DNA from: Nitrospinota bacterium
GTDB lineage: Bacteria; JADFOP01
NCBI GenBank assembly: GCA_022562795.1
Contig: JADFOP010000024.1
Coordinates: 1 to 31,040 of the forward strand
Direction of reading: 5' to 3'
Length of the DNA: 31,040 nt
Shown here: in pieces, positions 1 to 22,589 of the stretch
Numbering within the stretch: position 1 is the stretch's first letter
Layout of the letters: each line of letters starts with the position of its first letter
Translations under genes and position numbers: made by a program
Notes under the pieces: model-generated
What the model saw: the letters and a program-made list of their open reading frames with translations, nothing else
Databases searched by the model: none
Told to the model about the DNA's origin: nothing

Positions 1-1946
1 GACTCCTCCACGCCCTCGGTAATAAGGAGGGCGCGGGCGGCCGTCGTCATGGCTTGATATGCCATTCGGGCTGCCTCGGTATAATTCCCTTGTTCGTACT
101 GGAGGTTGGCTTCAAAGAGCTCCCGCTCCGCCTCGCCCAGCTTCAGCTCCACCTCGGGGACCAATTGGCCGGCGCACTCGCCCGTTCCGACCCCCACGCT
201 GAACGGTTCCTCTTCACCCCAATCGACGTAGAAATCAGGCTGCTCGCTGATGTCAGGGACCTCCCGTAGATGGGCCAGCCCATCGCGGATGCCTTTCTTG
301 CCCACCCGCTCGGCCCACTCGTTAAAGCTCTCACCGTCGCTCCTCTCGTCCCGGTAGCGGCCCACCAGATGTTCTACCGTGGCGGGGATGTTCTTAGCCG
401 GGACCTTTAAGGTCGCCAGGCCGAACGAGTTGGCGTTTTCCGACTTCTGCCCACCCAAGAACAGATGATAGTTGGGCACCACGTTGCTGCCAACACGTTG
501 AGAGGAGCCGAAAAAGCCAATGTTGGCCACGTGGTGCTGACCGCAACTGTTCGGGCATCCGCTGACCTTGATGGAGAGGTCGCGGAACTCTTCGGGGAGG
601 GCCTCAGCTTCGGAGCCGTTGGAGGCAAGCATCTCGCGCAGCCTTAGCGCGAGGCTCTTAGAGGAAGTAATCCCCAGGATGCAGGTATCGGCGCCGGGGC
701 AGGCGGTGATGTCGAGCATCGTCTCGGCCCCCGGCTCGGACAGCCCCGCTTCGTCGAGCGCCTGGTAGAGCTCCCAGAGGTCGGATCGTCTCACCCAGCG
801 CATGAGGAAGTTCTGCTCTACGGTCGTCCGAAGGTTCTCGCCGTTGAATCTCCGAATAATGGAGGCCACGGCCCGAAGCTGTTTTGGATTTATATCGCCT
901 ATCGGCAAGGTGATGTAGACGGAGCAGAAGCCCTCTTGCTTCTGGGGGACGGCGTTGGTGGAGCACCATAGCTCGAAGGCTGGCGAGGTGCCCCCATTTC
1001 CGGGCGGCCCGTCGGGCAGAGCGGGCGACTCCTCCCCTCGCCGCACCACCAAAGGCCGTGAGAACCAGTAGGGATCGCTCCGGAGCACCTCAATCTCTTC
1101 ATGCACTTGACGGCGGAATTCCTCGATCCCAAGCTTCGCGACCAAAAACTTAAGCCGCGCCTTATTGCGGTTTTTCCGCTCGCCCCCTTTGTGAAAAACC
1201 GACAGAATCCCCGCTTGGTGCAGGATGATTTCCTCCGCAGGGAGGAACTCACTGTAGAGCTTGGCCGGATGGGGCTGCGCCCCAAGGCCACCACCGACCC
1301 ATACCTCGAAACCGTACTCGGTGCGGCCGTCGACCTCGCGGGTCCTGGCGATGTGGCCGATGTCGTGCATGTGGGCGAGCCCGCAGGGCTTGTCGGCGCA
1401 GCCGGAGAAGGCGATTTTGAACTTGCGGCCGAGCTGCTGGCATAGAGGATGTCGCAAGAAAGCATTCGTCGTAGCCCGAGCGATGGGCGTCACGTCAAAG
1501 GTTTCATCAGGGCAGACCCCGCTCAAGGAGCAGGCGGTGATGTTGCGGACCGTGTTGCCGCAGGCCTCTCTCGTTGTGAGCCCCACCGAAGCCAACCGGC
1601 GCATGATGGTTGGAACGTCCTCTAGCTGTACGAAGTGGTATTGAACGTCCTGCCTGGTGGTGACGTGGGCTAAGCCGTGGCCATGATTTTCGCTGATTTC
1701 GGCCAACATCTCGAGCTGGGTCGCGTTGAGCAGCCCTGAGGGAATCTTCACGCGCACCATATGGACGCCGGGCTGCCGCTGGCCGTAGATGCCGTGGTTC
1801 AGGCGGAAGTGCTTGAAATGCTCTTCCGATATTTTTCCCCGCTTCAAACGCTCGACCTCTACCTCGAAAATCTGAATCTCACGCTCAATCTCGGGCGCGA
1901 GCGCCTCTCTGTCTGAGGCAAAAAAAGAACGATGCTCCTCGCTCAT
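1..1946 (-). CDS. Siroheme nitrite/sulfite reductase with C-terminal HEPN-like extension (3' end cut by window)
   Basis: The minus strand is open from the ATG at 1946 to the window edge (about 648 codons, no stop). The start has a good ribosome site, AAGGAG about 10 bases upstream. The protein has the two pseudo-repeats of ferredoxin-type nitrite/sulfite reductases. The C-terminal half carries the siroheme-[4Fe-4S] motif C416-x5-C422 ... C464-x3-C468 (CPGADTC, SGCPNSCG). The N-terminal half keeps related cysteines (C139, C145, C183, C188). This family reduces nitrite to ammonia or sulfite to sulfide with six electrons in the cytoplasm; sequence alone does not say which. After about residue 590 there is an extra helical stretch with the pattern ELFEANLQYEQGNYTEAARM followed by AARALL, which resembles a HEPN domain. 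It is divergent from the Rrf2 regulator gene. Nitrite from the linked Nxr/Nar enzyme would be a sensible substrate (inference). Confidence 0.88.
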   Translation of the reverse strand, partial: MSEEHRSFFASDREALAPEIEREIQIFEVEVERLKRGKISEEHFKHFRLNHGIYGQRQPGVHMVRVKIPSGLLNATQLEMLAEISENHGHGLAHVTTRQDVQYHFVQLEDVPTIMRRLASVGLTTREACGNTVRNITACSLSGVCPDETFDVTPIARATTNAFLRHPLCQQLGRKFKIAFSGCADKPCGLAHMHDIGHIARTREVDGRTEYGFEVWVGGGLGAQPHPAKLYSEFLPAEEIILHQAGILSVFHKGGERKNRNKARLKFLVAKLGIEEFRRQVHEEIEVLRSDPYWFSRPLVVRRGEESPALPDGPPGNGGTSPAFELWCSTNAVPQKQEGFCSVYITLPIGDINPKQLRAVASIIRRFNGENLRTTVEQNFLMRWVRRSDLWELYQALDEAGLSEPGAETMLDITACPGADTCILGITSSKSLALRLREMLASNGSEAEALPEEFRDLSIKVSGCPNSCGQHHVANIGFFGSSQRVGSNVVPNYHLFLGGQKSENANSFGLATLKVPAKNIPATVEHLVGRYRDERSDGESFNEWAERVGKKGIRDGLAHLREVPDISEQPDFYVDWGEEEPFSVGVGTGECAGQLVPEVELKLGEAERELFEANLQYEQGNYTEAARMAYQAMTTAARALLITEGVEE

Positions 1947-2240
1947 ATCCCCATCTCCTTCTTGAGAATAAATCTCCAGTCGGTCCAACAATCCGTCTGC
2001 TAGCTAGCACGGGCTCAAGATCGATGTGGAGTCCCCACGTTCTTCCTCACTATCAAGGCTGTCGATTGCACTGGTAACCTGGGCAGAGAAAGCACGTTAT
2101 TATGTGTATACCCTCTAACGAATCAGTGCAGTAGAGGCGCCGCAATGCGCAGCGATCGGACACGGAAACCCTAAGATTCTTAGCAACGCAAAACAAACCA
2201 TCGATGAGAGGCGTCATTCACCCTCCTCTATGGGCGGCCG

Positions 2241-2258
2241 CTCGTGTGGTGACACGAG
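2241..2258. repeat. Perfect 7-bp inverted repeat
   Basis: CTCGTGT and ACACGAG flank a four-base loop GGTG. It lies about 35 bp upstream of the -35 element of the Rrf2 gene. There is no T run, so it is not an obvious terminator. It could be an operator or part of a minus-strand leader. Confidence 0.4.
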
Positions 2259-2291
2259 GGCTCATGAATTTGGAAAAATGCATCGACCCTA

Positions 2292-2320
2292 TTGACATCA
2301 GATCTAAAGGCACTTATTAA
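2292..2320 (+). promoter_or_regulatory. Sigma-70-type promoter of the Rrf2 regulator gene
   Basis: TTGACA at 2292-2297 is a perfect -35 hexamer, followed after exactly 17 bp by TATTAA at 2315-2320 as the -10. Transcription would start near 2327, giving a leader of about 48 bases before the ATG at 2375. The start site falls inside the TATAGATAAA direct repeat, so a protein bound there would block initiation. Confidence 0.6.
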
Positions 2321-2340
2321 TATAGATAAATATAGATAAA
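2321..2340. repeat. Tandem direct repeat TATAGATAAA x2 at the predicted start site
   Basis: Two exact, adjacent 10-bp copies (2321-2330, 2331-2340) follow the -10 of the Rrf2 gene directly and are followed by further AT-rich sequence. A 10-bp period puts both copies on the same face of the helix. This is a possible autoregulatory operator for the Rrf2 protein (inference). Confidence 0.5.
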
Positions 2341-2374
2341 TCGATGAATAAATCAAGTATTAAATAAGGCTACC

Positions 2375-2860
2375 ATGATTTCTGCAACGTCCGAGCATGC
2401 TCTTCGTGCCATAGCCAGCATTGCTGCCGTGACCAATCCCACCTCCCCGGAAACCAGGGAGCCGATTTTGGCTCGCGACCTTTCCTCGAGAGCTGGGGTG
2501 CCCCTCAACTACCTCTCGAAAATCTTAGGAACCCTGAGCAGGGCGGGCATCCTGCAAGCGAGTCGTGGACGGGGCGGCGGATACCGTCTCGTCCGGTCCG
2601 CCGACCAGATCCCCCTCATCGACGTCGTCGAGCTGTTTGACGGGGTCACAGCCCGGCCGGACTGCTTTTTCGGAGGGGGTCGTAAGTGCTCCGACGATGA
2701 TCCCTGCACCGCGCATGATGCCTTTAAGCAGGTCCGGGAGCAGTACATAGATTTCCTTGAATCGACGACAATCGCCGATATCGCGGGCCCCACCTACGCG
2801 GACGGCGCGCCGGCCGGGGGGCTCCCTCCCTTGATCCGACAAGAAAATGCATTCTCTTGA
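2375..2860 (+). CDS. Rrf2-family regulator with three conserved-position cysteines (NsrR/IscR-like)
   Basis: A 161-residue protein. The N-terminal winged helix-turn-helix is typical of Rrf2 proteins: SEHALRAI at the start, then SSRAGVPLNYLSKILGTL at about residues 37-54 and the wing SRGRGGGYRL at 63-72. C97, C105 and C111 (spacing x7 and x5) sit where IscR and NsrR bind a [2Fe-2S] or [4Fe-4S] cluster, though the first spacing is longer than the x4-x5 I recall for those two. It is therefore probably an Fe-S sensor of nitric oxide, oxygen or cluster status. The start has AAGG about 7 bases upstream. It precedes the long respiratory operon, and its TGA stop lies inside the palindromic operator of that operon. 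It is not adjacent to iscS, where iscR usually sits. Sensing specificity cannot be assigned from sequence. Confidence 0.85.
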   Translation: MISATSEHALRAIASIAAVTNPTSPETREPILARDLSSRAGVPLNYLSKILGTLSRAGILQASRGRGGGYRLVRSADQIPLIDVVELFDGVTARPDCFFGGGRKCSDDDPCTAHDAFKQVREQYIDFLESTTIADIAGPTYADGAPAGGLPPLIRQENAFS

Positions 2861-2871
2861 CTTAAGTCAAG
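2856..2871. promoter_or_regulatory. FNR/Dnr-type palindromic site, copy 1
   Basis: CTTGACTTAAGTCAAG is a perfect 16-bp palindrome of the FNR/CRP-superfamily form TTGAC-N4-GTCAA. Its centre (2863.5) is 41.5 bp upstream of a start site predicted at about 2905 from the -10-like TACTTT at 2893-2898. That is the class II activator geometry. The same 16 bases recur at 21729-21744. The stop codon of the Rrf2 gene (2858-2860) is inside the site. Confidence 0.65.
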
Positions 2872-2892
2872 GCTCAAACGGGAGGGCGAACA

Positions 2893-2898
2893 TACTTT
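2893..2898 (+). promoter_or_regulatory. -10 element of the respiratory operon promoter
   Basis: TACTTT lies at the position expected for the -10 of a promoter activated by a factor bound at 2856-2871. No good -35 hexamer is visible apart from the palindrome, which fits activator dependence. The start site would be near 2905. Confidence 0.4.
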
Positions 2899-2982
2899 TA
2901 TTGGAAGACCATAGTTGGAGCCATCCAGGTTGGCTCCTAATGAGGGTTCCGAGGTGAGAGCGAGAGCTCTTGGTTAGTAAAA

Positions 2983-3219
2983 ATGGGTACTTCTCGCCGC
3001 TTTGAGATTTTCCTGGACTGCCTGTGGGGCTTTCCGCTTCTCGCAGGCTTGCTCTTGATTCCGTTGAGCTTGATCACCTTAGATGCGTCGGGAGCGATTG
3101 GTGCTTCGGCCTTGTGGCTTCATCTCGTCTTGCTCGCCACGTTCGCCTACACCTTCAGCCTTCGACTCCGGCACCGATTTCCTTTGTTACAGCGAAAGAG
3201 GAAAAGTAATGAACTGTAG
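2983..3219 (+). CDS. Small two-TM membrane protein of unknown function
   Basis: A 78-residue reading frame with two hydrophobic stretches (about residues 15-34 and 39-57) and a basic C-terminus (RLRHRFPLLQRKRKS). This predicts a small inner-membrane hairpin protein with a cytoplasmic tail. I do not recognise a family. It is the first frame after the predicted promoter at 2893, and its end overlaps one candidate start (3209) of the next gene, which suggests translational coupling. The ribosome site is weak: purines lie mainly 20-30 bases upstream. It could assist assembly or anchoring of the periplasmic complex (speculative). A spurious frame remains possible. Confidence 0.5.
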   Translation: MGTSRRFEIFLDCLWGFPLLAGLLLIPLSLITLDASGAIGASALWLHLVLLATFAYTFSLRLRHRFPLLQRKRKSNEL

Positions 3220-3286
3220 CGTAACTAGGCGTCGGGTGGCGAACAACCATGCGGATACGACTTATCACCCAGAGGGCAAAAGAAAG

Positions 3287-4414
3287 ATGAGGATCTTCCA
3301 GAGGTGCCTGCTTGAGCGACTGGTTGTGGCCGCCTGCATGGTGGCACTGCTTGGCGGGAGCGCTGCCTGGGGGGCCGAGAAGTATTCTCCTCTCGGCCCG
3401 CTTCCAGACCTGAAACAACCTGATTCGGCGAGGGTTGAGCTGGGGCGGTATCTCTTCTTCGATTCGCGGCTCTCGGGTGACACCGCCCTCAGCTGCGCCA
3501 GCTGCCACTTGCCGACCAAAGGTTGGACCGACGGCCTCCCGCTATCCAGAGCGTACCCGGGTTCCGAATACTTCCGAAACGCCAAGACCGTCCTCAACGC
3601 CGTCCACGCCGAGGTCTTATTCTGGGATGGCCGTCTCTCCTCCGACCCGTTTGAAACGCACGTCAGGGACCACCTCACCGAGAGCCACTTCATGAACATG
3701 GACGGGCGCCTCATGCAGGAGCGGATCAAGCAGATCCCAGAATACGTCAAGATGTTCAAGAACGCTTGGAATTCGGAGCCGTCTTTCGGGAAAATCCGCA
3801 ACTCAATCCGCGACTTTGAGAAGACCCTGGTCTCCCGGAACGTCCCCTTCGACAGGTTCATGAAGGGGGACAAAAGGGCGCTATCGGCCAAGGCCAAAAG
3901 AGGCTTGGCCCTATTCAAGGGCAAAGCAGGCTGCATGCGGTGCCACAACGGCGCTTATTTCTCCGACGGGAAGCCGTACAATCTTGGGGTTCCGACCAAC
4001 CCCGACATCGTAAAAAACCCCTTGCGTCACATCGGTATGCGCTCCTTCTTTCTGGGTATGGGGGTTCCAGGGTTTGAACACCTAACAGAGGACGTGGGCT
4101 ATTACACCGTCTCAAAGGTCGAGGCCGACAAGGGAAAGTTTGTGACCCCCACGCTCCGGGAATTATCCCGGACGGCGCCCTACATGCATAATGGGATGCT
4201 GAAGACCCTTGATGAGGTAATTAAGTTCTACGGCAGAGGTGGAGGAAAGAGTCCAAACAAGACGCCGTTGCTCAAACCACTTCGCCTCACCGCCAGCGAG
4301 AAGGCGGCTTTGGTGGAGTTTCTAAAGAGTCTCAGCGGGGATGAGGTTGTCGTCGCGGTTCCCGAGTTACCGAAATATGAGGTTATCAAAAACTGGCTCA
4401 AGGTAAAGAATTAA
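3287..4414 (+). CDS. Di-haem cytochrome c peroxidase-like protein, IdrP-type
   Basis: 375 residues from the ATG at 3287, with a Sec signal peptide (LVVAACMVALLGG, likely cleavage near AWG-AE at about residue 30). Two c-type haem motifs are present: C70-A-S-C73-H74 and C216-M-R-C219-H220. This is the bacterial CcpA/MauG architecture, in which one haem is the active site and the other receives electrons. The C-terminal core TAPYMHNGM...TLDEVIKFY is typical of the family. The protein is periplasmic and reduces peroxide or a related oxidised product using cytochrome c. Iodate reductase operons carry two such genes next to idrA and idrB, as here. An in-frame ATG at 3209 has a better-placed AGAGGA but adds a 26-residue leader before the signal peptide, so I prefer 3287. 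Assignment as IdrP1 or IdrP2 is not possible by eye. Confidence 0.85.
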   Translation: MRIFQRCLLERLVVAACMVALLGGSAAWGAEKYSPLGPLPDLKQPDSARVELGRYLFFDSRLSGDTALSCASCHLPTKGWTDGLPLSRAYPGSEYFRNAKTVLNAVHAEVLFWDGRLSSDPFETHVRDHLTESHFMNMDGRLMQERIKQIPEYVKMFKNAWNSEPSFGKIRNSIRDFEKTLVSRNVPFDRFMKGDKRALSAKAKRGLALFKGKAGCMRCHNGAYFSDGKPYNLGVPTNPDIVKNPLRHIGMRSFFLGMGVPGFEHLTEDVGYYTVSKVEADKGKFVTPTLRELSRTAPYMHNGMLKTLDEVIKFYGRGGGKSPNKTPLLKPLRLTASEKAALVEFLKSLSGDEVVVAVPELPKYEVIKNWLKVKN

Positions 4415-4477
4415 TCGGGCTCGGATAGTAAAGGGGATGCGCAACAGCGTTTCGTCGACAGAGGAGAAGCAAAGCCC

Positions 4478-5629
4478 ATGAGAGTGCGATTTTGGATACT
4501 CATCCCAGTGCTCCTGGCTATCGTTTTGGGTCTCTTCCTGGCGCCCCGGCCTGACATCGCCACGGGGAAAGAACCCTTCCCGTCTCTCGGGCCGTTGGGG
4601 CCGGTACCCACCCCCCCGGACAATCCCACGACGCCGGCCAAAGTGGAATTGGGAAAGCTGCTCTTCTTTGATAACCGCCTCTCCGGCGATGGCAGCACTC
4701 CTTGCCTAAGCTGCCACGTCCCTCAAGTGGGCTGGGGGGACGGAGGGGACATATGTCACGGCTATCCCGGGACGAAGCACTGGCGTAACTGCCAAACGAT
4801 AGTCAATTCGGCGTATTACAATAAGCTGTTCTGGGCCGGCTCCTCCAAAAGCTTGGAGGCCCAGGCGGAGACGGCAGCAAGGGGAGCAGTGGCGGGCAAC
4901 GGGGAGCGTGATATGATGGAAGCCCGCCTCCTTCAGATCCCGGAATATGTCAAGCGGTTCAAGGAGGTCTTTGGGACACGCAGCCCCCATCTCAAGGACG
5001 CCTGGCGCGCCATCGCCGCCTTCGAGCGGACCATCGTTCAGCGAAACACCCCCTTCGACCGCTACATAAAGGGCGACAAGGGGGCGATGTCGGCAAAGGC
5101 CGTAAGGGGACTTGCCCTGTTTTCGGGTAAAGCCGGGTGCGTCCAGTGCCACAACGGCTCCCTCCTAACCGACCAGAAATACTACAATTTAGGCGTGCCA
5201 GAGAATCCCACCTTTCAGAGGGACGCCCAGCACCAGATTACCTTCCGGTTTGAGCAATACGCCAAGGGGGTTACCGAAGATATCTATCGGACGACGAAAA
5301 CCGACCTGGGTCTCTACTACCGGATGAAGCGCAAGGAGGATATGGGGAAGTTCCGGACTCCCTCCCTGCGGTATCTGGTCTACACCGCTCCTTATATGCA
5401 TAACGGGGTCTTTAGGACCCTCGAAGAAGTTATCAAGTTCTACAACAAGGGCGGTGGAGAAGATATCATCCATAGCCTATACGGGTTCAGTACAAAGACC
5501 AATAAAATCAAGCCACTCAATCTTACTGAAAACGAAAAGGGGGCGCTAAAGGCGTTCCTCGAGAGCTTGAGCGGAGAGCAAATCATCGTGAACCCTCCAA
5601 AGCTTCCCGAATACGCGGTCTATAAGTGA
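4478..5629 (+). CDS. Second di-haem cytochrome c peroxidase-like protein, IdrP-type
   Basis: 383 residues with an N-terminal hydrophobic segment (residues 5-22, WILIPVLLAIVLGLFLA) lacking a clear cleavage site, so it may be membrane-anchored in the periplasm. The haem c motifs are C76-L-S-C79-H80 and C221-V-Q-C224-H225. It is a clear paralogue of the preceding gene (shared LSGD, IPEYVK, NxPFDR, FYNLGVP-like, TAPYMHNG and EVIKFY blocks) but divergent enough to suggest a distinct role. A ribosome site GAGGAG lies about 11 bases before the ATG. The spacing is 63 bp from the first paralogue, and the next gene begins within or just after its stop. The paired paralogues with a Rieske protein and an AioA-like subunit are the recognised Idr arrangement. 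Confidence 0.87.
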   Translation: MRVRFWILIPVLLAIVLGLFLAPRPDIATGKEPFPSLGPLGPVPTPPDNPTTPAKVELGKLLFFDNRLSGDGSTPCLSCHVPQVGWGDGGDICHGYPGTKHWRNCQTIVNSAYYNKLFWAGSSKSLEAQAETAARGAVAGNGERDMMEARLLQIPEYVKRFKEVFGTRSPHLKDAWRAIAAFERTIVQRNTPFDRYIKGDKGAMSAKAVRGLALFSGKAGCVQCHNGSLLTDQKYYNLGVPENPTFQRDAQHQITFRFEQYAKGVTEDIYRTTKTDLGLYYRMKRKEDMGKFRTPSLRYLVYTAPYMHNGVFRTLEEVIKFYNKGGGEDIIHSLYGFSTKTNKIKPLNLTENEKGALKAFLESLSGEQIIVNPPKLPEYAVYK

Positions 5630-5658
5630 TGAGCTGCGGGGAGAGGGGAAAAGGGACC

Positions 5659-6213
5659 ATGAATTCAGACCAAGCGCAAGAGAGACCCTGTATGACCAGG
5701 CGGCAGTTTCTGCTGGCCAGTGGGAGCGTTACCCTTACAACCGTCTTTCTGCCCTCGATTCCCGGCCTCCTAGGTCGGGCAGAGGCGGTCCCGGCGACGC
5801 TGACAAAATATCCGAAGAAAAAGGTCGGGAAGCTCAGCGCCTTGAAGACGGATGCGCCCAGGTACTTCAATTATCCCTTTAAAGATATGTATTCGCAGAA
5901 CATGCTCGTGAAATTGGGTGCCCCCGCATCGGGAGGCGTCGGGGCTGATCAAGATATCGTGGCCTTCAGCACCTTGTGCACCCACATGGGAGGACCCCTG
6001 GCCGGGAGATACAAGAGTCAAGATAAGGTCCTGGGGCCCTGCCCGCTCCACTTGACCACCTTTGACCTGACCCGGCACGGGATGGTCGTCGCCGGCCACG
6101 CCACCGAATCTCTGCCCCAGGTCGTCTTGGAGGTCCGGGGCGATACCATCTACGCCACGGGGATTCTGGGTCTGGTTTACGGCAAGCGCAATAACCTTGA
6201 TACGGGAAAGTAG
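5659..6213 (+). CDS. idrB: Tat-exported Rieske [2Fe-2S] small subunit (IdrB/AioB-like)
   Basis: 184 residues from the ATG at 5659, which has AAGGGACC just upstream; GTG 5626 and ATG 5629 are in-frame alternatives overlapping the previous stop. A twin-arginine signal (TRRQFLLASG, residues 13-22) is followed by a hydrophobic run. The Rieske ligands are C107-T-H109 and C128-P-L-H131. The two extra cysteines that form the disulfide in many Rieske proteins are absent: CTHMGG and CPLH replace CTHxGC and CPCH. The C-terminal block FDLTRHGMVVAGHATESLPQ matches the AioB pattern I know. It would transfer electrons between cytochrome c and the Mo subunit and provide the Tat signal for the pair, since the large subunit has none. 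AioB is the alternative name; the neighbouring peroxidases favour IdrB. Confidence 0.85.
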   Translation: MNSDQAQERPCMTRRQFLLASGSVTLTTVFLPSIPGLLGRAEAVPATLTKYPKKKVGKLSALKTDAPRYFNYPFKDMYSQNMLVKLGAPASGGVGADQDIVAFSTLCTHMGGPLAGRYKSQDKVLGPCPLHLTTFDLTRHGMVVAGHATESLPQVVLEVRGDTIYATGILGLVYGKRNNLDTGK

Positions 6214-6254
6214 ATAGGGACCGTTATGGTCTTCCGGTGAGGAGGTAGGACATT

Positions 6255-8930
6255 ATGTCGGAACGGAAATACAAACGGCAGGACAAGGTCCCCTTGCCAC
6301 CGCCTGATGCGAAGGTGTTCACCACGGCCTGCGACTATTGCATTGTGGCGTGCGGGTATAAGGTCTACCGCTGGCCGGTGGGCAAGGAGGGGGGGCTCAA
6401 GGCCAAAGAAAACGCACTGGGCGTAGATTTTCCCGTCTCGCCGCTGAGCGGTAAGTGGGTTACCCCCAATATGCACAACGTGGTGAGGGCCGACGGACGC
6501 CTTCACAACGTTGTCGTCATTCCAGACGGCGATAGCAAGGTGGTCAATGTTGGCGGGACTCACAGCATCCGCGGGGGCTGTATCGCCCAAAAGGTCTTTA
6601 ACCCCGAAACGCCAACTAAGGATCGCCTGCAGCGTCCTCTCCTTCGGGTGGGGGGGAAGCTGACGCCGGTTTCGTGGGATACTGCCTTTGACATTATGGC
6701 CAAGGTCTCTAAGCACGTACTCGACACGCAAGGCGTCCATGCCTGGGCCATGAAGATGTTTTCCTACCATTATTATGAGAACACTTTCGCCTTGACAAAG
6801 TTGGCCTTTAGTTACATTGAAACACCGGCCTTTGCCTTTCACGACAATCCATCCGTGGCGCCCGACACCCCGGGGTTCCGGGATGTTGGATTTGACAACT
6901 TCTCAGCTTCATACGAAGACTGGTCCCTCGCCGACGTCCTCTACATCTCAGGGACCGATCCTTATGAGACCAAAACGGTCATCTTCACCCATTGGATTCT
7001 TAAAGGAATTAACACGCACAATATGAAATTGATCTACGCCCTCCCGCGCAAGACGACGGGCGTGGCTCATGCCGAGGCCACGGGGGGACTGCACCTATGG
7101 CTTATTCCCGGAACTGATACCGTGCTTCACATGGCCATAGCCCGGGTCATCTTGGAGAACGGATGGGAAGATAAGGAGTGGATTGCCCAGTTCACTAATA
7201 ATAAGTGGGGCACCGACTCCGGCTTTGGCCAGGGCACCCGGAACACACAGTGGCAGTGGCGAACCACGTGGGGCAAGCTCGAGACCAAGGGCTTTAAGGA
7301 CTACAAGGAGTGGATCCTGGCCCAGGAGGAGTCGAAGCTCGATGTCGCGGAGAAAATCACTGGGGTCCCCAGAGGCGACATCGTCCGGGCGGCGGAGATG
7401 ATGGCCAAGCCGCGGCCAGACGGGTCGCGCCCTAAGACCTCGATCGGAATCGAGAAGGGCAACTACTGGTCCAACAACTACCTAAACACCGCCTCGATCG
7501 GCTCCTTGGCATTGCTTTGCGGGGCGGGCAACAGGCCGGGCCAGATGGTCTCACGTTTCGGCGGCCACCAGAGGGGAGGCCGTAAAGGGGGCCGCTATCC
7601 CATGGAGAAGTCGCCGGAGAAGTACCCGGGCCGCCGCCGGAAATCTCTCGACCTCGACAGGTGGGTCGAGGCGGGCAATGTGCGGTTCTGCTGGTGCATT
7701 GGCACTACATGGGTTGGCTCCATGACGGCCTCTCAGGCCATGGAGGAGACTTTCAAACGCAGCACTGTTGCCAATCCGCATCAAATCAGGCGGAAAGATG
7801 CAAAGCATGCCGTTGAGGTTCTCAAGCAGCGTGTCGACAACGGCGGGATGATGCTCGTTTTCCAGGATATCTATCTACGCCAGCCGCTGGGTACGAAGTA
7901 TGCAGACCTGGTGCTGCCAGCGGCTACGTGGGGAGAAGAGGACTTCACCCGGTCCAACGGCGAGAGGAGAATTCGCCTTTATTCCAAGTTCTACGATGCG
8001 CCGGGGGAGTCGAAGCCTGATTGGTGGATTGCGGCCCAGTTTGCCAAGAAGATGGGCTCTAAGGGATTCAACTGGAAGGACTCCAACGAAGTCTTCGAGG
8101 AATCGGCCCGCTTCGGGCGCGGCTCCCGCACGGACTATTACCCCCTGGTCTGGCTCGCTAAAAAGAAGGGGATGAGGGCCCATGAGCTGCTTAGGAGCAT
8201 GGGGACTGAAGGTATCCAATGCCCTATCAGGTACGAAGACGGAAAGCTCGTTGGCACGAAGCGACTCCACGACTCCACCCTGAAACTGCCCGAGGGCGGG
8301 CCCGAGGGGCCCACAATCTGGCCCAAGTTCCTCACAGCCTTCAAATCCCAAACGGGCAAGGCCAATTTCATCAAGTCTCCCTGGAGTCTCTTTTCCGACT
8401 TTTACGAGTGGTTTAAGCCGAAGGGCGATGAGCTATGGATCACCAACGGCCGCATCAACGAGATTTGGCAGTCGGGTTACGACGATATGGAGCGGCGGCC
8501 ATACATCACCGAGCGATGGCCGGTCAACTTCATGGAAATCCACCCGGAGGACGCCGAGGCCCGGGGCATCGAAAGCGGGGATTGGGTGGCTGCCGAAAAC
8601 GATCGCGTTCCGGTCCAAGTCAGCGGGTTCTACGGCGTCCAACCCAACGACTTCACCTTTACGGAGCTGATGAAGGCAGGCCACATAAAGCTGACCAAGG
8701 CCAGGATTAACGCCGTGGCCTTAGTCACCCCAGCGGTCCGCAAGGGCGTGGCATGGATGTACTTCCTCGACCCCAAGCAGCCGGCCAACAGTTTAGTTGC
8801 GCGGGTGGTCGACCCCCTTACGAACAACTATCGCTTCAAGCTTGGGATGGGCCGGGTTCGAAAGACCGGCGAGTCACCCTACAAGCGGTCGTTGGAGGAA
8901 ATGTCCTTTGCGCGCCGGGATATTGCATAA
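6255..8930 (+). CDS. idrA: Molybdopterin large subunit of the arsenite oxidase/iodate reductase family (IdrA-like)
   Basis: 891 residues, with GGAGG 9 bases before the ATG. The N-terminus has C26-x2-C29-x3-C33-x70-S104, exactly the AioA-type motif in which serine replaces the fourth cysteine and gives a [3Fe-4S] cluster. Further AioA-family blocks are GTDPYETKT, GGHQRGGRKGG, LVLPAATWGEEDFTRSNGER and NGRINEIWQSGYDD. This family holds Mo-bisMGD without a protein ligand to Mo. There is no signal peptide, so it would be co-exported with the Tat-tagged Rieske subunit. The family includes arsenite oxidase (AioA) and dissimilatory iodate reductase (IdrA). The adjacent pair of di-haem peroxidases is the Idr hallmark and is not part of aio operons, so I favour iodate reduction in the periplasm. 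Only a phylogeny or enzyme assay can separate the two. Confidence 0.87.
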   Translation: MSERKYKRQDKVPLPPPDAKVFTTACDYCIVACGYKVYRWPVGKEGGLKAKENALGVDFPVSPLSGKWVTPNMHNVVRADGRLHNVVVIPDGDSKVVNVGGTHSIRGGCIAQKVFNPETPTKDRLQRPLLRVGGKLTPVSWDTAFDIMAKVSKHVLDTQGVHAWAMKMFSYHYYENTFALTKLAFSYIETPAFAFHDNPSVAPDTPGFRDVGFDNFSASYEDWSLADVLYISGTDPYETKTVIFTHWILKGINTHNMKLIYALPRKTTGVAHAEATGGLHLWLIPGTDTVLHMAIARVILENGWEDKEWIAQFTNNKWGTDSGFGQGTRNTQWQWRTTWGKLETKGFKDYKEWILAQEESKLDVAEKITGVPRGDIVRAAEMMAKPRPDGSRPKTSIGIEKGNYWSNNYLNTASIGSLALLCGAGNRPGQMVSRFGGHQRGGRKGGRYPMEKSPEKYPGRRRKSLDLDRWVEAGNVRFCWCIGTTWVGSMTASQAMEETFKRSTVANPHQIRRKDAKHAVEVLKQRVDNGGMMLVFQDIYLRQPLGTKYADLVLPAATWGEEDFTRSNGERRIRLYSKFYDAPGESKPDWWIAAQFAKKMGSKGFNWKDSNEVFEESARFGRGSRTDYYPLVWLAKKKGMRAHELLRSMGTEGIQCPIRYEDGKLVGTKRLHDSTLKLPEGGPEGPTIWPKFLTAFKSQTGKANFIKSPWSLFSDFYEWFKPKGDELWITNGRINEIWQSGYDDMERRPYITERWPVNFMEIHPEDAEARGIESGDWVAAENDRVPVQVSGFYGVQPNDFTFTELMKAGHIKLTKARINAVALVTPAVRKGVAWMYFLDPKQPANSLVARVVDPLTNNYRFKLGMGRVRKTGESPYKRSLEEMSFARRDIA

Positions 8931-9056
8931 GAGCAACCTTGACCGTCGGAGGCTCACTGGATTCCTCACGGTGTGGGAGCCTTCGGATGGCAGAGATGCA
9001 GGTCAATGGACCGCTATGAGGATTATGTCGTTTATACCCACTTGGGAGGTGCGGCC

Positions 9057-12000
9057 ATGAGGAGAGGGATGACCCGACGGGAGTTTCTTCAGTGGGCTAG
9101 CGCTGCCGGCTTCGGTGCCTTCGTCGCCTCTGCCACCGACGCCTGGGGCCTTGATACGATTAAGAACCCCTTGGCGCACTATCCGAACCGCGGCTGGGAG
9201 AAGACGTATCGCGACATCTGGGACTACGACTCGCTCTTCACCTTCCTCTGCGCGCCCAACGATACGCATAACTGCATTCTAAACGCCTATGTTCGCTCTG
9301 GCGTGATGACCCGGATAGGCCCGACAATGGGCTACGGTAAAGCGACCGACCTTTACGGCAACCAGGCGAGCCACCGTTGGGACCCTCGGGTATGCCAGAA
9401 GGGGCTTGCGCTGACGCGTCGCTTCTACGGCGACCGGCGCGTGCGACACCCAATGGTCCGCGCGGGCTTCAAGCGGTGGGTGGAGGCAGGTTTCCCGCGT
9501 GGTGAGGACGGCCAGCCGCCGGCCGATTATTTCCAGCGCGGACGTGACGAGTGGGTGCGCGCCTCCCACGACGAGGCTGCGGCCATGGTCGCCTCGACCC
9601 TGAAGAACATTGCAGAGACCTACAGCGGCGAGAAGGGCGCAAGTCTGCTTCACGCCCAGGGCTATGACGAAGATATGATCGCCGCCATGAAGGGGGCCGG
9701 CACCCAGGCGCTCAAGTTCCGTGGCGGGATGCCGCTTCTTGGGATGACGCGCATCTTAGGCATGTATCGCATGGCCAACTCTTTGGCGTTGCTCGATGCC
9801 AAAATCAGGGGCGTCGGCCAGGATAAGGCTCTCGGCGGCCGTGGCTTCGATAACTACTCCTGGCACACAGACCTTCCCCCCGGACACCCAATGGTGACCG
9901 GCCAGCAGACGGTCGAGTTTGACCTAAGCGCCGTCGAGCACGCCAAGACCGCCATTGTTTGGGGCATGAACTGGATTAGCACCAAGATGCCAGACGCCCA
10001 CTGGCTGACCGAGGCGCGCCTCAAGGGGACGAAGATCGTTGTAATCGCCTGTGAGTACTCCTCCACGGCGAGCAAGGGTGACGAGGTGATAATCGTTCGT
10101 CCCGGCACGACGCCGGCGCTGGCCCTCGGACTGGCTGGCGTGCTCATACGGGAGAAACGCTACGACGCGGATTACGTCAAGAAATGGACCGACCTGCCGG
10201 TGCTGGTGCGCATGGACACTCTCAAGTACCTCCGGGCCGAGGAGGTCTTCGGCGGCGGTCCCGCACCGCTAAGGAATCAAACACGGGTCTTGCGCAAAGG
10301 TGAGAAGGCTCCTCCGCCCGGCGTTCAGCGTGAGCAGCTCATCCCCGAAGACCTCCGCAACGAGTGGGGCGACTACGTCTGGTGGGACCGCCGAACGAAA
10401 GCCCCGAAGCTCCTCACTCGAGATGAGGTTGGCAAAAAATCAGGGGTAGGCGACCCGCTCCTTGAGGGCTCCGTCAGGGTCACTCTAAAAGATGGATCGG
10501 AGGTCCGCTGCCGCCCGGTGTTCGACCTTGTGCGAGAGTATGTTGAGCATTTCGACCCCAAGACGGTGGAGGACCTCACCTGGGCCCCGGCGACGGCGGT
10601 CACATCCCTCGCCCGGCAGATTGCCAAGGAGCCCGGGACCACCCTCTTTGCGATGGGGATGGGCCCGAACCAGTTCTTTAACAACGATAATAAGGACCGC
10701 GCCGTCTTTCTCCTGGCGGCGCTGACCGGCAATGTCGGCAAGATTTCCGGAAACGTTGGCTCCTACGCGGGCAACTACCGCGTGGCCCTCTTCAACGGCC
10801 TGCCCCAGTACGTCGGCGAGAACCCCTTCGATATCGAGCTCGATCCCTCAAAGCCGGCCCGGCCCAAGAAGTTCTGGAAAGCTGAGTCAGCCCACTACTG
10901 GAACCACGAGGACAAGCCACTCCGGGTGGGCAAGCGCCTGCTGACCGGCGCCACGCACATGCCCACACCGACCAAGTCCCTCTGGTTCGCCAATGCGAAC
11001 TCCATCCTCGGCAACGTCAAGCACCACTACAACGTCGTAGTCAACGTGTTACCTAAGATGGAGATGATTTCGGTTCAGGATTGGTGGTGGACGGCCTCAT
11101 GCGAGTGGGCCGACGTCGTATTCGCGGCGGACTCCTGGGCGGAGCTCAAGCATCCCGACATGACCGCCTCGGTGACGAATCCATTCCTTACGGTCTTTCC
11201 GCGCACGCCTCTGCCGCGCGTTTTCGACACCATTGGGGACATTGAGATCTTGGCTCTCGTTGGCCGCAAGATGGCCGAGCTGACGGGGGACAATCGCTTC
11301 GACGACCACTGGCACTTCGTACGTGAGGGGCGGACCGACGTCTATCTCCAGCGGATTCTCGACCACTCCTCCAACACGAAGGGCTACCGGTTCACGGAGC
11401 TCGAGGAGAAGGCAAAGAAGGGGATACCCACCTTGATGATGAACCGGACCTACCCAAAGGCGGTGGGCTACGAACAGGCCGAGGAGTCGAGGCCCTGGTA
11501 CACCAAGACCGGACGCCTCGAGTTTTACCGCGAAGAGGACGAGTTCATCGAGGCGGGCGAGAATCTGCCGGTCCACCGCGAGCCGATCGACTCCACCTTC
11601 TACGAGCCGAACGTCATTGTCTCCGCGCCGTGTGAGGCCCTCCGGCCGGCCGGCCCGGAGGACTACGGGGTCTCTCCCGACGACCTCTCGAGCGAGACGC
11701 GCCAGGGGCGAAACGTAGTGAAATCCTGGGCCGAAATGAGCCGCTCGCACCATCCGCTGGCCAAGGACGGCTATAAGTTCATCTTCCACACGCCCAAGTT
11801 TCGCCACGGCGCCCACACCATGCCTGTCGATACCGACATGGTCGCCATGCTCTTCGGCCCCTTCGGCGACATCTATCGCCACGATAAGCGAATGCCATTT
11901 GTGGCTGAGGGTTACGTTGACATGAACCCGGACGACGCCAAGGACTTGGGGGTTGAGGACGGCGATTACGTCTGGGTTGACGCCGACCCGAGCGACAGAC

Positions 12001-12515
12001 CGTTCAGGGGTTGGCAGAAGAACAAGCGAGATTATGAGTTCTCGCGCCTGCTTTGCCGGGCCCGCTACTATCCCGGCACGCCGCGCGGGGTCACGCGCAT
12101 GTGGTTCAACATGTACGGGACTACCCCGGGCTCGAGGGAGGGGCACAAGACCCGGCCCGACGGGCTGGCGAAAAACCCGAAGACCAACTACCAGGCGATG
12201 TTCCGCTCGGGCTCACACCAGTCGGCCACTCGAGGGTGGCTGAAGCCCACTTTGATGACCGACTCGCTGGTGCGCAAGGGTGTCTTGGGCCAGGTCATCG
12301 GTAAGGGGTTCGTCCCCGACGTTCACTGTCCCACCGGCGCCCCGCGCGAGGCGTTTGTGAAAATCACCAAGGCCGAGCCGGGTGGCATCGGCGGAGAGGG
12401 CCTGTGGCGTCCCGCGAAGCTCGGCTATCGCCCTCGCTACGAAAGCAAGAAGATGAAGAAATACATCAAGGGGGCATTCATTAAGCAAGGCAAGGGCGAG
12501 GGAGGTAAAAGCTAA
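9057..12515 (+). CDS. nxrA: NXR/Nar-type periplasmic molybdopterin alpha subunit
   Basis: 1152 residues from the ATG at 9057, with GGGAGGT about 7 bases upstream. A Tat signal opens the protein ([14 protein letters not shown], residues 6-19), so it faces the periplasm, unlike proteobacterial NarG. It belongs to the type II DMSO reductase group. D272 in HTDLPP is the expected Mo ligand. The proximal cluster site reads C65-x3-D69-x3-C73-x39-C113; I recall the same Cys/Asp pattern in Nitrospira-type NxrA, whereas NarG has His in the first position. Blocks [39 protein letters not shown] and DDYGVSP-like regions also fit NxrA. The enzyme would interconvert nitrite and nitrate. Whether it runs as oxidase or reductase, or acts on chlorate or selenate, cannot be read from sequence. 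It is 126 bp downstream of idrA and its stop overlaps the beta subunit start. Confidence 0.85.
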
Positions 12516-13651
12516 TGCCGAACGTTCGTAATTGGCAGATCGGGCGGGATATGCCCTATCCCTATGAGGAGGTGCGGCCAAAGAAGCAGTTCGCAGGGGT
12601 TTTTGACATCAACAAGTGCATTGCCTGCCAGACCTGTACCCTCGCCTGCAAGACCACCTGGACGTCGGGAAAGGGCCAGGAGTACATGCTCTGGAACAAC
12701 GTGGAGACGAAACCATACGGCTCTCATCCATTAGGGTGGGACGTGCGAATCCTAAACGAGCTCGGCCCCCAAGAGTGGGACGGCGACAAGTACAAGGGGC
12801 GCACCATTTTCGAGGCGGCTCCTCCCGGAGAGCAGGTGCTCGGTTGGAAACCTGAGGATCTGGATTACGCCCACCCGAACGTCGGCGAAGACGACTCCGT
12901 CGGCAAGGTCGAGAAGGGGCTACACCTTCACGCGCCCCACATGAACTGGTTCTTCTACCTGGCCAAAACGTGCATGCATTGCACCTACCCCGCTTGCCTC
13001 GCCTCCTGCCCGCGCCAATCGATCTACAAGCGGCCCGAGGACGGCATCGTCTTGATAGACCAGGACCGTTGTCGAGGCTACCGAGAGTGCGTGAAGGGCT
13101 GCCCGTACAAGAAGGCCTACTACAACCCGATGACGGGGACCTCCGAGAAGTGCATTGGCTGCTATCCCAAGCACGATGTGAGTGGGCCAAAGGAGGCGCC
13201 GCAGTGCTTCGTCACCTGCATCGGGAAGATTCGGTGTGCCGGCTGGATCTCGCGGCCGGAGAAGGCTCGGGAAGACAACCCCATCGACTACCTCGTCCAC
13301 TTCCGCAAGGTCGCACTTCCGCTTTACCCCCAGTTCGGTCTCGAGCCGAACATGTACTACATCCCCCCGATTCACGTTCCCAAGCCCTTCTTGCGCCAGA
13401 TGTTCGGCCCGGGAGTTGACCACGCCATCGAAACCTACCGTAAGATACCCGACGACAAAGACCTGGCCGGCCTGCTGACGCTCTTCGGCTCCACTCCCCT
13501 GGTTTTCCCGCGGTGGAGGCGGAAGGGGGACACGGTCTTCGGGCTCGACGAGGACGGCAGCGAGATCGTGCGGGTGCCGATCACCGAGCCGGTCCACATC
13601 CGGGTCGCCTTTGATGCGACCCACGGTGTGGTGCGGACTAATATCCCATGA
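12515..13651 (+). CDS. nxrB: NXR/Nar-type iron-sulfur beta subunit
   Basis: 378 residues. The ATG shares a base with the alpha stop (TAATG), with GGAGG upstream. Four cysteine clusters are visible: C35-x2-C38-x2-C41-x3-C45, then [26 protein letters not shown] and CIGC followed by a distal pair in CFVTC. In CRGY the tyrosine replaces one cysteine, as tryptophan does in NarH, so three [4Fe-4S] and one [3Fe-4S] cluster are expected. The N-terminal block [14 protein letters not shown] and [17 protein letters not shown] closely match the NxrB pattern I know from Nitrospira. It passes electrons between the Mo subunit and the haem b subunit. There is no signal peptide, so it would be exported with the Tat-tagged alpha subunit. 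Confidence 0.92.
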
Positions 13652-13664: not shown

Positions 13665-14528
13665 ATGCGACGATTAACCTGTCCTGTCGCCCTTCTGGTG
13701 CTTCTAGTTACGGTTGGGGCGCCCTTCGCCGTCGCTACACCCGAGGCTGCCGCCGAGGTAGTCGCCCTCCGGCGCGGTGTCCTTCCGGCCGATCCCGGTG
13801 ATGTCGCCTGGCGCAAGGCTCCAATGCATGTGGCGCCCCTAGTCCCGCAAAATCTGGTCGCGCCGAGGCTGATGGAGCCCTCGACCAAGGAGGTCCGGGT
13901 GCAAGCGATGACCGATGGAAACCGGGTTGCGTTCCGGCTCGCCTGGGCTGATTCGACTAATGACGACCTCCCTGGAGCAAAGCGCTTTACCGACGCCTGT
14001 GCCGTTATGCTTCCGCAGGACGCCATGGCCCCGGTCCCCTCTCCCATGATGGGCGCTGCCGGGACCCCGGTCGAAATAACCTACTGGTCGGCCTTCTGGC
14101 AGGCGGCGCTTGATGGTCGTGGCGATACGATCAAGGACATCTACCCCGGCGCGGCGGTGGACCACTATCCCTTCGAGGCCCCCTCGCTGAAGCCGGGCTC
14201 GAAAGAGCAGAGGGCGATGGCGATGAGATACGCTCCGGCCCGCGCCCTCGGCAATCGCCGGGTAGGGCCGCGTGAACGCCCGGTCGAGGACCTTGTGGCC
14301 GGGGGGCCGGGAACCATTACCCGGGCGGGTACGACCAAGTCCAACGGCCACGGTAGCCGGACCGAGGAAGGCTGGGCGGTCGTCATCTCCCGTCCCCTAA
14401 CGAAGGGCCTTCGCCCCGGGAGCCAGTCGCATGTTCAATTTGCCGTTTGGAATGGGTCTCATGGCGAGGTGGGCTCGCGCAAGATGTGGTCGGGCTGGAT
14501 TCCTCTACGCATCAAGGAGGATAGGTAG
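13665..14528 (+). CDS. nxrC: Haem b gamma subunit (NxrC/DdhC/EbdC-like), periplasmic
   Basis: 287 residues from the ATG at 13665, with AGGAGG 8 bases upstream. A Sec signal peptide (VALLVLLVTVGAPFAVA) is followed by a soluble beta-rich domain typical of the ethylbenzene dehydrogenase gamma/DdhC family (AWRKAPMHVAPLVPQNL, VAFRLAWADSTNDD, ITYWSAFWQAALDG). These subunits hold one haem b with Met and Lys axial ligands and link the Fe-S chain to periplasmic cytochrome c. I cannot assign the ligands with certainty, although M142-M143 in PSPMMGAAG are candidates. A soluble gamma subunit in place of membrane NarI supports a cytochrome c-linked periplasmic enzyme. Confidence 0.8.
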   Translation: MRRLTCPVALLVLLVTVGAPFAVATPEAAAEVVALRRGVLPADPGDVAWRKAPMHVAPLVPQNLVAPRLMEPSTKEVRVQAMTDGNRVAFRLAWADSTNDDLPGAKRFTDACAVMLPQDAMAPVPSPMMGAAGTPVEITYWSAFWQAALDGRGDTIKDIYPGAAVDHYPFEAPSLKPGSKEQRAMAMRYAPARALGNRRVGPRERPVEDLVAGGPGTITRAGTTKSNGHGSRTEEGWAVVISRPLTKGLRPGSQSHVQFAVWNGSHGEVGSRKMWSGWIPLRIKEDR

Positions 14529-14530: not shown

Positions 14531-15127
14531 ATGGCTCGCCCTGACGCTCCGGAGGTTCAGGAATTCTTGGCTGAGGCGGCGGAGTGGCGCCTTATAGGTC
14601 TGCTGTTGGAGCGTCCTCGCTCCGGTTGGGAGGACGAGGTTAAGAGCCTTGGCAGCGAAGTGCTGGACGAGCCTCTTCGGGCGGCGGCCGAAGCTGCCCG
14701 GGAGGCCACCGAGGGAACCTACCTGGGCCTTCTGGGGCCGGGCGGCTTCGTCTCCCCCCGTGAGGTCGCCTACCGTCCCCAGGAGGACCCCGGTAAGATC
14801 ATGTCTGACCTGGCGGCTTTTTACGAAGCTTTCGCCTTCTCCCCCAAGGCCGAGGACCCGCTCGACCACATTGCGGTGGAGGCGGGCTTCGCTGGCTACC
14901 TCCGGTTGAAGGAATTATATGCCTTGGCGCGAAGAGATGAGAAGGGGGCCGCCACGACCGCCGAAGCACACCGCCACTTTCTGGAGGAGCACCTGGGAAC
15001 CTTCGTCGAGCCCTTTGCCCAAGGCCTGGAGCCTTCCGGGGTTTCCTACCTCGTTGCAGCCGCGCGTGGGCTCCTCGAACGAGTAAAGAAATCTTTGGAC
15101 GAAACGGCCGGCGTCTCCGAGCCATAA
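14531..15127 (+). CDS. TorD/NarJ/DdhD-type molybdoenzyme assembly chaperone
   Basis: A 198-residue, mostly helical cytoplasmic protein with AAGGAGG 10 bases before the ATG, starting 2 bp after the gamma subunit stop. The N-terminal [11 protein letters not shown], the middle [13 protein letters not shown] and the acidic region [19 protein letters not shown] (the E-x3-D-H-hydrophobic-E motif) are the TorD-family pattern. The protein would bind the apo alpha subunit, help Mo-bisMGD insertion and hold back Tat export until folding is complete. Position directly after alpha, beta and gamma matches ddh, ser, clr and ebd operons. It may also serve the upstream IdrA, since no second chaperone is present. 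Confidence 0.85.
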
Positions 15128-15147: not shown

Positions 15148-16410
15148 ATGGTCAATATGGATCATCAAGAACCTGTACCCCGCATGAAAGCGATCGACAT
15201 GAATCTGCCCATTTACATGGACAATAACGCCACAACGCCTGTCGACGGGCGGGTCCTGGAGGCGATGCTTCCCTACTTTTGCGAGGAGTACGGTAACGCC
15301 GCAAGCCGAAACCATTCATTTGGTTGGCGGGCTGAGGAGGCCGTAGGGCGGGCCAGGGAGCAGGTCGCCCGGCTGATAGGAGCCAAGCCCAGGGAAATTA
15401 TCTTCACGAGCGGGGCGACCGAGAGCGACAACCTCGCTTTGAAGGGCGTGGCCGAGATGTATCGGGAGAAGGGCGATCACATCATCACCCAGGTGACCGA
15501 GCATAAAGCGGTGCTAGATTCGGCCAAGCGTCTCGAGCGGCAGGGCTTCGAGGTCACCTATCTGCCGGTCGACCGAGACGGGCTGGTAGACCCGGACGAC
15601 GTGCGGCGTGCGCTCAGGGAGACGACGATTCTCATCTCCATCATGGCTGCCAATAACGAGATTGGGGTGGTGCAGCCGTTGGAGGAGATCAGCCGTATCG
15701 CGAAGGAGCGTGGAGTGCTGTTTCACAGCGACGCGGCCCAGGCCGCAGGCAAGGTGCCGGTGGACGTGGAAGCCTGGGGGGTGGATCTTGTGAGTCTGAG
15801 CGCCCACAAGATGTATGGGCCTAAGGGGGTGGGCGCGCTCTACGTTCGGCGTCGAAACCCCCGGGTACGGCTCTCCCCGATGATGGACGGCGGCGGCCAC
15901 GAGCGTGGCATGCGTAGCGGTACCCTCGACGTTCCGGGCATAGTTGGGTTCGGAGCGGCTTGCGAGCTGGCTTACCGGGAGATGGAAGCGGAGGCCGAGC
16001 GACTTCGGTTCCTCAGGGACCGGCTGGAAGGGGGCATCCTGTCCCACGTAGAGGAGGTCTACCGTAACGGCCATGCCGAGCGGCGCCTGCCGGGCACGAG
16101 CAACCTCTCGTTCGCCTACGTGGAGGGCGAAAGCCTGATGATGGGCCTCAACGAGATTGCCGTCTCCAGCGGCAGCGCCTGTACCTCGGCCATCCTCGAG
16201 CCCTCGCACGTCCTGAGGGCGCTCGGAGTGGGCGAGGAGCTAGCCCATTCCTCCATCCGTTTCAGCCTCGGTCGGTTCAACACCGAAGAGGAGGTCGATT
16301 ACGTCATTCAGCGAGTTAAGGAAACAGTGGAGCGGCTCCGAGAGATGTCGCCCCTCTACGAGATGGTCAAAGAGGGGATCGACCTCTCGAGCGTTCAGTG
16401 GCAGACCTGA
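15148..16410 (+). CDS. iscS: Cysteine desulfurase IscS
   Basis: A PLP enzyme that takes sulfur from cysteine for Fe-S assembly, and in other bacteria also for Mo-bisMGD sulfuration and tRNA thiolation. With the start at 15148 the protein has 420 residues: H119, the PLP lysine K221 in [12 protein letters not shown], and the catalytic C345 in SSGSACTSA on the IscS-type flexible loop. An in-frame ATG at 15199 gives [16 protein letters not shown] and 403 residues, almost exactly the E. coli length, and may be the true start. Neither start has a strong ribosome site. The gene follows the TorD-like gene by 20 bp, so the isc genes appear to be in the respiratory transcript. No iscR precedes it. Confidence 0.95.
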
Positions 16411-16434
16411 GGCAGGCAAGGCGGGAACGCAATC

Positions 16435-17545: not shown

Positions 17546-17551
17546 CCCGCT

Positions 17552-20043: not shown

Positions 20044-20059
20044 GAGGAGGAACCAGCCC

Positions 20060-21166: not shown

Positions 21167-21181
21167 GTGTGGCGGCGTCGT

Positions 21182-21616: not shown

Positions 21617-21728
21617 GTCTAATCTCCTATATCAGAGAAATTATCGCAAAAGCATACTTTGTGGCGACCATGGGGTTCAGCTGTCGCACCGAGACACCTT
21701 TGATGAACTACATTTTCCCTTGTTATAC

Positions 21729-21744: not shown

Positions 21745-21765
21745 CATGCTACCCGCGGAGAATCA

Positions 21766-21771: not shown

Positions 21772-21835
21772 AAATAGAGCTATCATATCCATCCCCAAGG
21801 GGTTCTTGACCGGGACATATAGAGGAGACCAACGT

Positions 21836-22588: not shown

Positions 22589-22589
22589 C

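Follow-up and report, generated by a model that had tools for sequence, protein, structure and literature searches.

The closest described relatives of the locus considered here are the iodate reductases (Idr) of Pseudomonas sp. SCT, Denitromonas sp. IR-12, and Azoarcus sp. DN11. In each case, four genes encode IdrABP1P2: a molybdenum (Mo) subunit, a Rieske subunit, and two di-haem peroxidases. The verified DN11 enzyme has the motif CX2CX3CX70S in IdrA, with CXHX18CX2H and a twin-arginine translocation (Tat) motif in IdrB (PMC10149662). The same family includes AioAB, the arsenite oxidase (Aio) of A. faecalis and Rhizobium NT-26. Here, we analyse a 31,040 bp stretch of DNA, hereafter the window, that is one entire contig. 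It belongs to metagenome-assembled genome (MAG) B6D1T2, Ca. Nitrosediminicola aerophilus, of phylum Ca. Nitrosediminicolota (JADFOP01 in GTDB), from Mariana Trench sediment (PMC11009272). On the forward strand, an Idr-type gene set is followed, in the same direction, by an operon for nitrite oxidoreductase (NXR). Judged from sequence, we consider it quite probable that this cluster is a periplasmic iodate reductase of Ca. Nitrosediminicola, co-directional with the NXR operon.

The MAG comprises 2,151,810 bp, in 84 scaffolds, and is 97.1% complete (PMC11009272, Table 1). Its host is a proposed nitrite oxidizer of sediments, with a global distribution. Nitrite oxidation was argued from ecology, genes of the reductive tricarboxylic acid (rTCA) cycle, and a lack of organic substrate transporters (PMC11009272). 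The described metabolism includes complex I and alternative complex III (ACIII) (PMC11009272), and our genome search found a haem-copper oxidase. For Ca. Nitrosediminicolota, the same paper reports a run of nxrABCD, iscS, iscU, and hscAB, preceded by 'thiosulfate reductase and arsenite oxidase'. This is almost certainly the locus in the window. Since the gene layout fits, the published 'arsenite oxidase' is very probably the idrA gene described below. Note that PMC11009272 makes no mention of iodate. Similarly, in the literature searched, we found no description of idr together with nxr. Because the Mo enzyme was called an arsenite oxidase, the presence of idr and nxr in one co-directional block, in such an organism, has apparently gone unnoticed until now.

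The Mo subunit and its partners

The idrA-type gene (6255-8930, + strand) encodes a catalytic subunit of the Mo-bis(pyranopterin guanine dinucleotide) type. It has no signal peptide of its own, matches the Pfam families Rieske_3 (3Fe-4S) and Molybdopterin, and contains exactly the [3Fe-4S] motif CX2CX3CX70S. The protein also matches NCBIfam TIGR02693 (arsenite oxidase), scoring 475.8 against a cut-off of 359. Hence, automatic annotation reads arsenite oxidase. A first-pass annotation of the window, made from the sequence alone, had proposed an iodate reductase-type gene set and predicted that an arsenite oxidase label would probably be wrong. Both TIGR02693 and the naming upstream of nxr in PMC11009272 do give that label, and the comparisons that follow point instead to the proposed identity.

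We used a tree of 71 rows, with 65 Idr-type proteins, from loci recognised by their two peroxidases, and six AioA rows that include the solved A. faecalis and NT-26 proteins. The branch dividing Idr from Aio has a Shimodaira-Hasegawa-like approximate likelihood ratio test (SH-aLRT) value of 100. In line with the first-pass annotation, the window protein falls on the Idr side, outside the AioA clade. Its neighbours are from Pirellulales (Arabian9, ETNP7) and Verrucomicrobia MAGs. Identity is 55-70% to Idr-type proteins (99.7% for a sister species, see below) and 33-34% to AioA. Among plasmid records, identity was bimodal, at 54-55% for loci of Azonexus, Vibrio, and Thiothrix, and 28-32% for aio loci. 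Scanning named genomes with the window IdrA recovered 80 loci, at 57-100% identity. A proteobacteria-only Idr profile scored the window protein at 1456 bits and AioA at 333-371, while an AioA profile gave 616 bits for the window and at least 1243 for the two solved AioA. Seven alignment columns split Idr from Aio with few or no exceptions (85 Idr rows versus 6 Aio rows), and all seven carry the Idr letter in the window. We conclude that assignment of the Mo subunit to the Idr type, and not AioA, is well supported by these comparisons.

Residues around the active site were also compared. We take the arsenite pocket of AioA to be His195, Glu203, Arg419, and His423. At these columns the window has H196, D204, R434, and H438, so Glu203 is replaced by Asp. 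The Glu following GGHQ in AioA is also changed, to Arg. Ala199 of AioA is presumably the position where other family members bind Mo. Here, the window has Ser200, and residues in the Idr set are S, G, or A. Hence, the Idr set may have no conserved protein ligand to Mo at this position, although Ser200 could be a ligand in the window protein.

The three partner genes lie upstream of idrA, on the same strand. The first di-haem peroxidase (3287-4414) is of the Idr type, with two CxxCH motifs and a CCP_MauG match of E 1e-41. Its open reading frame (ORF) opens at 3083 but ATG 3287, which provides a signal peptide for the general secretory (Sec) pathway, is the most likely start. Among solved structures, it is closest to cytochrome c peroxidases of bacteria. 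Note that we call this protein P1 by position; its literature name may be P2. The second peroxidase (4478-5629) is likewise Idr-type and Sec-exported, with two CxxCH motifs and a CCP_MauG match of E 5e-44. In the Protein Data Bank, it matches cytochrome c551 peroxidases. The two proteins share 45% identity. The idrB-type Rieske subunit (5626-6213, likely ATG 5659) matches the Pfam Rieske family and contains CXHX18CX2H, with the Tat signal RRQF. All signal peptide calls (Tat for IdrB, Sec for P1 and P2, none for IdrA) were made by eye.

ORFs and translations indicate that the four genes are intact, closely spaced, and co-directional. A chance match is ruled out by E-values down to 1e-142, and by recurrence of the four-gene order among relatives. 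Hence, the two tandem di-haem peroxidases, Tat-exported Rieske protein, and Mo subunit noted in the first-pass annotation are all present, with exact motifs. Its view that aio operons lack the peroxidases also holds for the four aio plasmid loci inspected, none of which has the pair. Conversely, it took the P-P-B-A gene order to be unusual, and this is not so. Both peroxidases were found in 70 relatives, 69 of which share the arrangement of the window, with the pair ahead of B and A, and an Azonexus plasmid locus is also peroxidases-first. Previously, idrAB was found always to be preceded by peroxidases (PMC8801600), and P2-P1-B-A is the order in SCT, IR-12, and Ca. Methylomirabilis iodofontis (PMC10989891). 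We therefore discount gene order as a novelty. We also considered cysteines of the Rieske disulphide, which the window protein lacks. Both are missing from nearly all Idr-locus Rieske proteins and present in three Aio plasmid loci. We set this aside as an Idr-only mark, since proteobacterial AioB without the bridge presumably exists.

In summary of likenesses, the window shares four genes, P-P-B-A order, Idr clade, [3Fe-4S] and Rieske motifs, and Tat/Sec signals with the SCT, IR-12, and DN11 systems. It differs in belonging to a marine Planctomycetota/Verrucomicrobiota-type subclade, and in having an Rrf2 gene upstream, and nxrABCD and isc genes downstream, rather than an adjoining two-component system, cytochrome c551, and moaA. 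Ca. M. iodofontis is also known from a non-proteobacterial MAG, with idr in P-P-B-A order and other nitrogen-oxide metabolism in the genome; however, it is a methane oxidizer, with no NXR reported beside idr (PMC10989891). AioAB systems share the [3Fe-4S] motif, Rieske partner, and three arsenite-pocket residues, but have no peroxidases, and ars genes are often beside aio.

Because their neighbours, like those of the verified type, include moaA and genes for a sensor kinase, a sigma-54 regulator, and cytochrome c, the Azonexus and Thiothrix plasmid loci served as stand-ins for verified Idr. The same neighbourhood, that of verified iodate respirers, occurs in the clade of loci L009 and L015. 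In the IdrA tree, the window is flanked on its opposite side by Roseobacteraceae, which include verified iodate reducers (PMC11445184). Since these groups bracket the window, the simplest inference is that the ancestor of this span of the tree reduced iodate.

The adjoining NXR operon

The first-pass annotation ended the gene set at 8930 and did not mention an NXR operon. In fact, the block runs on in the same direction, through a complete NXR-type operon, nxrABCD (ending at 15127), and isc genes. The nxrA-type gene (8973-12515) has a likely ATG at 9057, which is 126 bp past the idrA stop. Its product has the Tat signal TRREF and matches Kuenenia NxrA (7b04) with 928 bits. The next-best structure is 4ydd, of the type II dimethyl sulfoxide reductase family, with 183 bits; we take this to be perchlorate reductase. 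Next are an nxrB-type iron-sulfur subunit (12515-13651; Kuenenia NxrB, 7b04, 388 bits), an nxrC-type haem-b gamma subunit (EB_dh) with a Sec signal (13665-14528; PF09459; Kuenenia NxrC, 1.6e-15, 60 bits), and nxrD, for a NarJ-type chaperone (14531-15127; PF02613, and TIGR03482 below its cut-off). Immediately after nxrD are genes for iron-sulfur assembly, iscS, iscU, hscB, and hscA-ferredoxin (15148-19828), with iscS and hscA recognised by NCBIfam, and iscU and hscB from their sequence and place in the gene order. All are on the + strand. By these matches, NxrABC is homologous to the solved NXR, and NxrA and NxrC are predicted to be periplasmic from their Tat and Sec signals.

The NxrA tree has two clades. 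One contains Kuenenia, the only named reference, with several groundwater MAGs. The window NxrA is not within this anammox-type clade but in its sister. Previously, the Nitrosediminicola NXR was placed near Nitrotoga and Chloroflexota nitrite oxidizers (PMC11009272). Upstream of idr is a gene for an Rrf2-family protein (2375-2860, + strand; TIGR00738 above cut-off, PF02082), with the Cys motif C-x7-C-x5-C. This is likely the regulator of the operon. Consensus promoters and terminators in the window showed no excess over shuffles, and operon boundaries are not readable from them.

A sister species in the same genus, Nitrospinae bacterium AH_259_B05_G02_I21, was informative. Its locus is colinear with 1-8942 and 15207-30481 of the window, but nxr is absent at the site, and NxrA had no match anywhere in the genome, which is 85% complete. 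Since colinearity holds either side, with iscS straight after idrA, the nxr block came or went as a whole between these genes, with idr kept in the absence of nxr. Between the two species, IdrA is 99.7% identical in protein and 98.4% in nucleotide sequence, and Rrf2 is 99% identical in nucleotide sequence. Other compared proteins are 66-96% identical, and neighbouring genes 76-96% in nucleotides. The greater likeness of Rrf2 and idrA could reflect strong constraint or recent recombination.

The closest NxrA relatives are from loci L143 (77%) and L116 (73%). Both have, in order, Rrf2, a GltD-like protein with flavin adenine dinucleotide (FAD) and iron-sulfur centres, cytochrome b, multihaem cytochrome c, and nxrABCD. 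Hence, Rrf2 genes are upstream of nxr here too, and the window idr genes fill the slot held by the cytochrome module in these loci. As an aside, the L116 and L143 upstream genes could form a quinone- or NAD-linked NXR, or nitrate reductase, module.

Linkage of idr and nxr recurs elsewhere. An Omnitrophota MAG (locus L030, 1128-13598) has Rrf2, a cytochrome-fused NxrC, NxrA, P-P-B-A, and cytochrome c, all in one direction but without nxrB. In a Rokubacteria MAG (L035), idr and nxr are neighbours, about 7 kb apart on opposite strands. The NxrA proteins of both belong to the Kuenenia clade, other than that of the window. In a further genome (G031), idr and nxr are on one contig, ~31 kb apart. Overall, NXR-type genes were found in 11 of 49 genomes with Idr and 33 of 380 others (p 0.009, uncorrected for kinship), which is suggestive of NXR being commoner in Idr genomes.

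Possible roles of the idr-nxr block

The model of Reyes-Umana et al. (PMC8692401), for Idr and its peroxidases, can be applied to the window. IdrA and IdrB would be exported together, via the Tat signal of IdrB. A c-type cytochrome in the periplasm would donate electrons, which would reach the Mo site by way of the Rieske and [3Fe-4S] centres and there reduce iodate to hypoiodous acid (HIO). HIO would then disproportionate, giving iodate and iodide, and peroxide or other oxidants would be cleared by the pair of di-haem peroxidases. Iodate reduction by the window cluster is likely. Most likely, Idr would give the proposed nitrite oxidizer an extra electron sink of high potential when oxygen is low, and would probably be co-expressed with NXR under the Rrf2 regulator. 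The electrons could come from NXR, or from quinol via ACIII.

The nitrate/nitrite couple is at +0.43 V. The iodate/iodide couple is higher, at +0.72 V (PMC8801600) and, hence, nitrite is a possible donor. By simple calculation, the reaction of nitrite with iodate is downhill, by about -56 kJ per two electrons. Even so, we regard nitrite oxidation with iodate as the acceptor, by transfer from NXR to periplasmic cytochrome c and then Idr, as doubtful. Because NXR and Idr would both be periplasmic, with protons released and consumed on the same side, direct electron flow between them should build no proton motive force. This argues against energy-conserving direct coupling. The coupling could act as a sink, sustain NXR turnover, or supply the oxidase. 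The latter would require dismutation of HIO to oxygen, as in the SCT model. We looked for a chlorite dismutase that might fit this model. There was one partial PF06778 match (58 bits), on a contig (C10) away from idr, that could equally be ChdC/HemQ of haem synthesis, and we did not use it.

It has long been puzzling, in the marine nitrogen cycle, that nitrite is oxidized where no oxygen can be measured, and one oxidant proposed for this is iodate (PMC11373643). An iodate-driven reaction was proposed from geochemistry (Babbin 2017, as cited in PMC8114937; also PMC11373643). In the literature searched, we found no known organism or gene set for iodate-dependent nitrite oxidation. The window would place both enzymes in one co-directional block of a proposed nitrite oxidizer. 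Since the couple is downhill, this makes the reaction directly testable. If true, the block would be a candidate for the genes behind nitrite oxidation that needs no oxygen, in seawater and sediment where oxygen is low. Even without coupling, the candidate iodate reducers in marine sediment would gain a phylum and a nitrifier guild. The locus also shows that NCBIfam TIGR02693 mislabels Idr-type proteins.

A dual anaerobic terminal-reductase operon is a serious alternative, to which we give substantial weight. Idr would reduce iodate and the NXR-type enzyme nitrate, using quinol electrons delivered via ACIII and cytochrome c, so that idr and nxr adjoin through shared need under anoxia, rather than one enzyme feeding the other. 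Note that this reading concerns the role of the pair, and does not conflict with Idr as an iodate reductase. NXR is reversible and, with both enzymes periplasmic and only upstream pumps conserving energy, energy would be conserved more easily. The host has complex I and ACIII (PMC11009272), and the nearest relatives' nxr operon includes the cytochrome b, cytochrome c, and FAD module expected of a quinone-linked enzyme. However, the relatives' cytochrome b had no match in the window's genome, using a query without positive control. Furthermore, on ecology, transporter lack, and rTCA genes, the original authors favour nitrite oxidation (PMC11009272).

It is unlikely that adjacency of idr and nxr is functionally meaningless, due to nxr landing by chance between idrA and iscS, or a misassembled contig. 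The sister species does have idr without nxr, at the site or elsewhere, and some other genomes have idr and nxr on separate contigs. Conversely, the arrangement is reported to be generally consistent among MAGs from different sites (PMC11009272). Also arguing against chance are the neighbouring Idr and NXR genes of Omnitrophota and Rokubacteria, where NXR is of the other clade, and the excess of NXR in Idr genomes, uncorrected for kinship.

Several observations weigh against assigning the window cluster as an iodate reductase active at low oxygen. The Idr class, as used here, is relative to Idr-type loci with a peroxidase pair, gathered because they resemble the window, and the tree rows include no IdrA verified by biochemistry. 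Verified iodate respirers form a small subclade of the IdrA tree (PMC8801600). The window is outside our proxy for that subclade, and nearest to marine Planctomycetota/Verrucomicrobiota (69-70%), with no cytochrome c, moaA, or two-component system adjoining the idr cluster. Idr is active at low oxygen (PMC11445184), whereas the host was termed an oxic-zone specialist and assigned to oxic sediment (PMC11009272). A ten-transmembrane permease of the 'arsenic efflux' family NF037962/ArsP_2 (25748-27256), with uncertain substrate, is conserved in the sister species.

It is improbable that this Idr-family enzyme acts on a different substrate or in a different direction, such as iodide oxidation by a nitrifier, or use of another halogen oxyanion. 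The small share of the IdrA tree held by confirmed iodate respirers (PMC8801600) and the oxic assignment of the host would fit, and whether nitrifiers oxidize iodide is under active study (PMC8300602, PMC12335899). However, iodide oxidation offers little energy even with oxygen as acceptor, with iodate/iodide at +0.72 V (PMC8801600) and oxygen at +0.82 V, and Idr enzymes tested in the cited papers act as reductases. Least probable is an Aio flanked by two unrelated peroxidases since, despite the TIGR02693 score, the published label, three of four arsenite-pocket residues (H196, R434, H438), and the permease 17 kb downstream, the Mo subunit is outside the AioA clade with full support, Glu203 is Asp, several phyla conserve the peroxidase pair, which the four aio plasmid loci lack, and no arsR, arsC, or acr3 adjoins, unlike in the Burkholderia, Acidiphilium, and Cytobacillus aio loci inspected.

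Other genes in the window

Two further regions were noted. After the isc genes, at 19856-22588, are a radical-SAM protein (TIGR04053), a COX1-like protein of 144 amino acids (minus strand), and a RIC/ScdA-type iron-sulfur repair protein. This resembles a nitric oxide, or iron-sulfur stress, neighbourhood. At the opposite end, a gene on the minus strand (3-1991) runs off the contig. It encodes a NirA/sulfite reductase-like protein with a C-terminal HEPN-like stretch.

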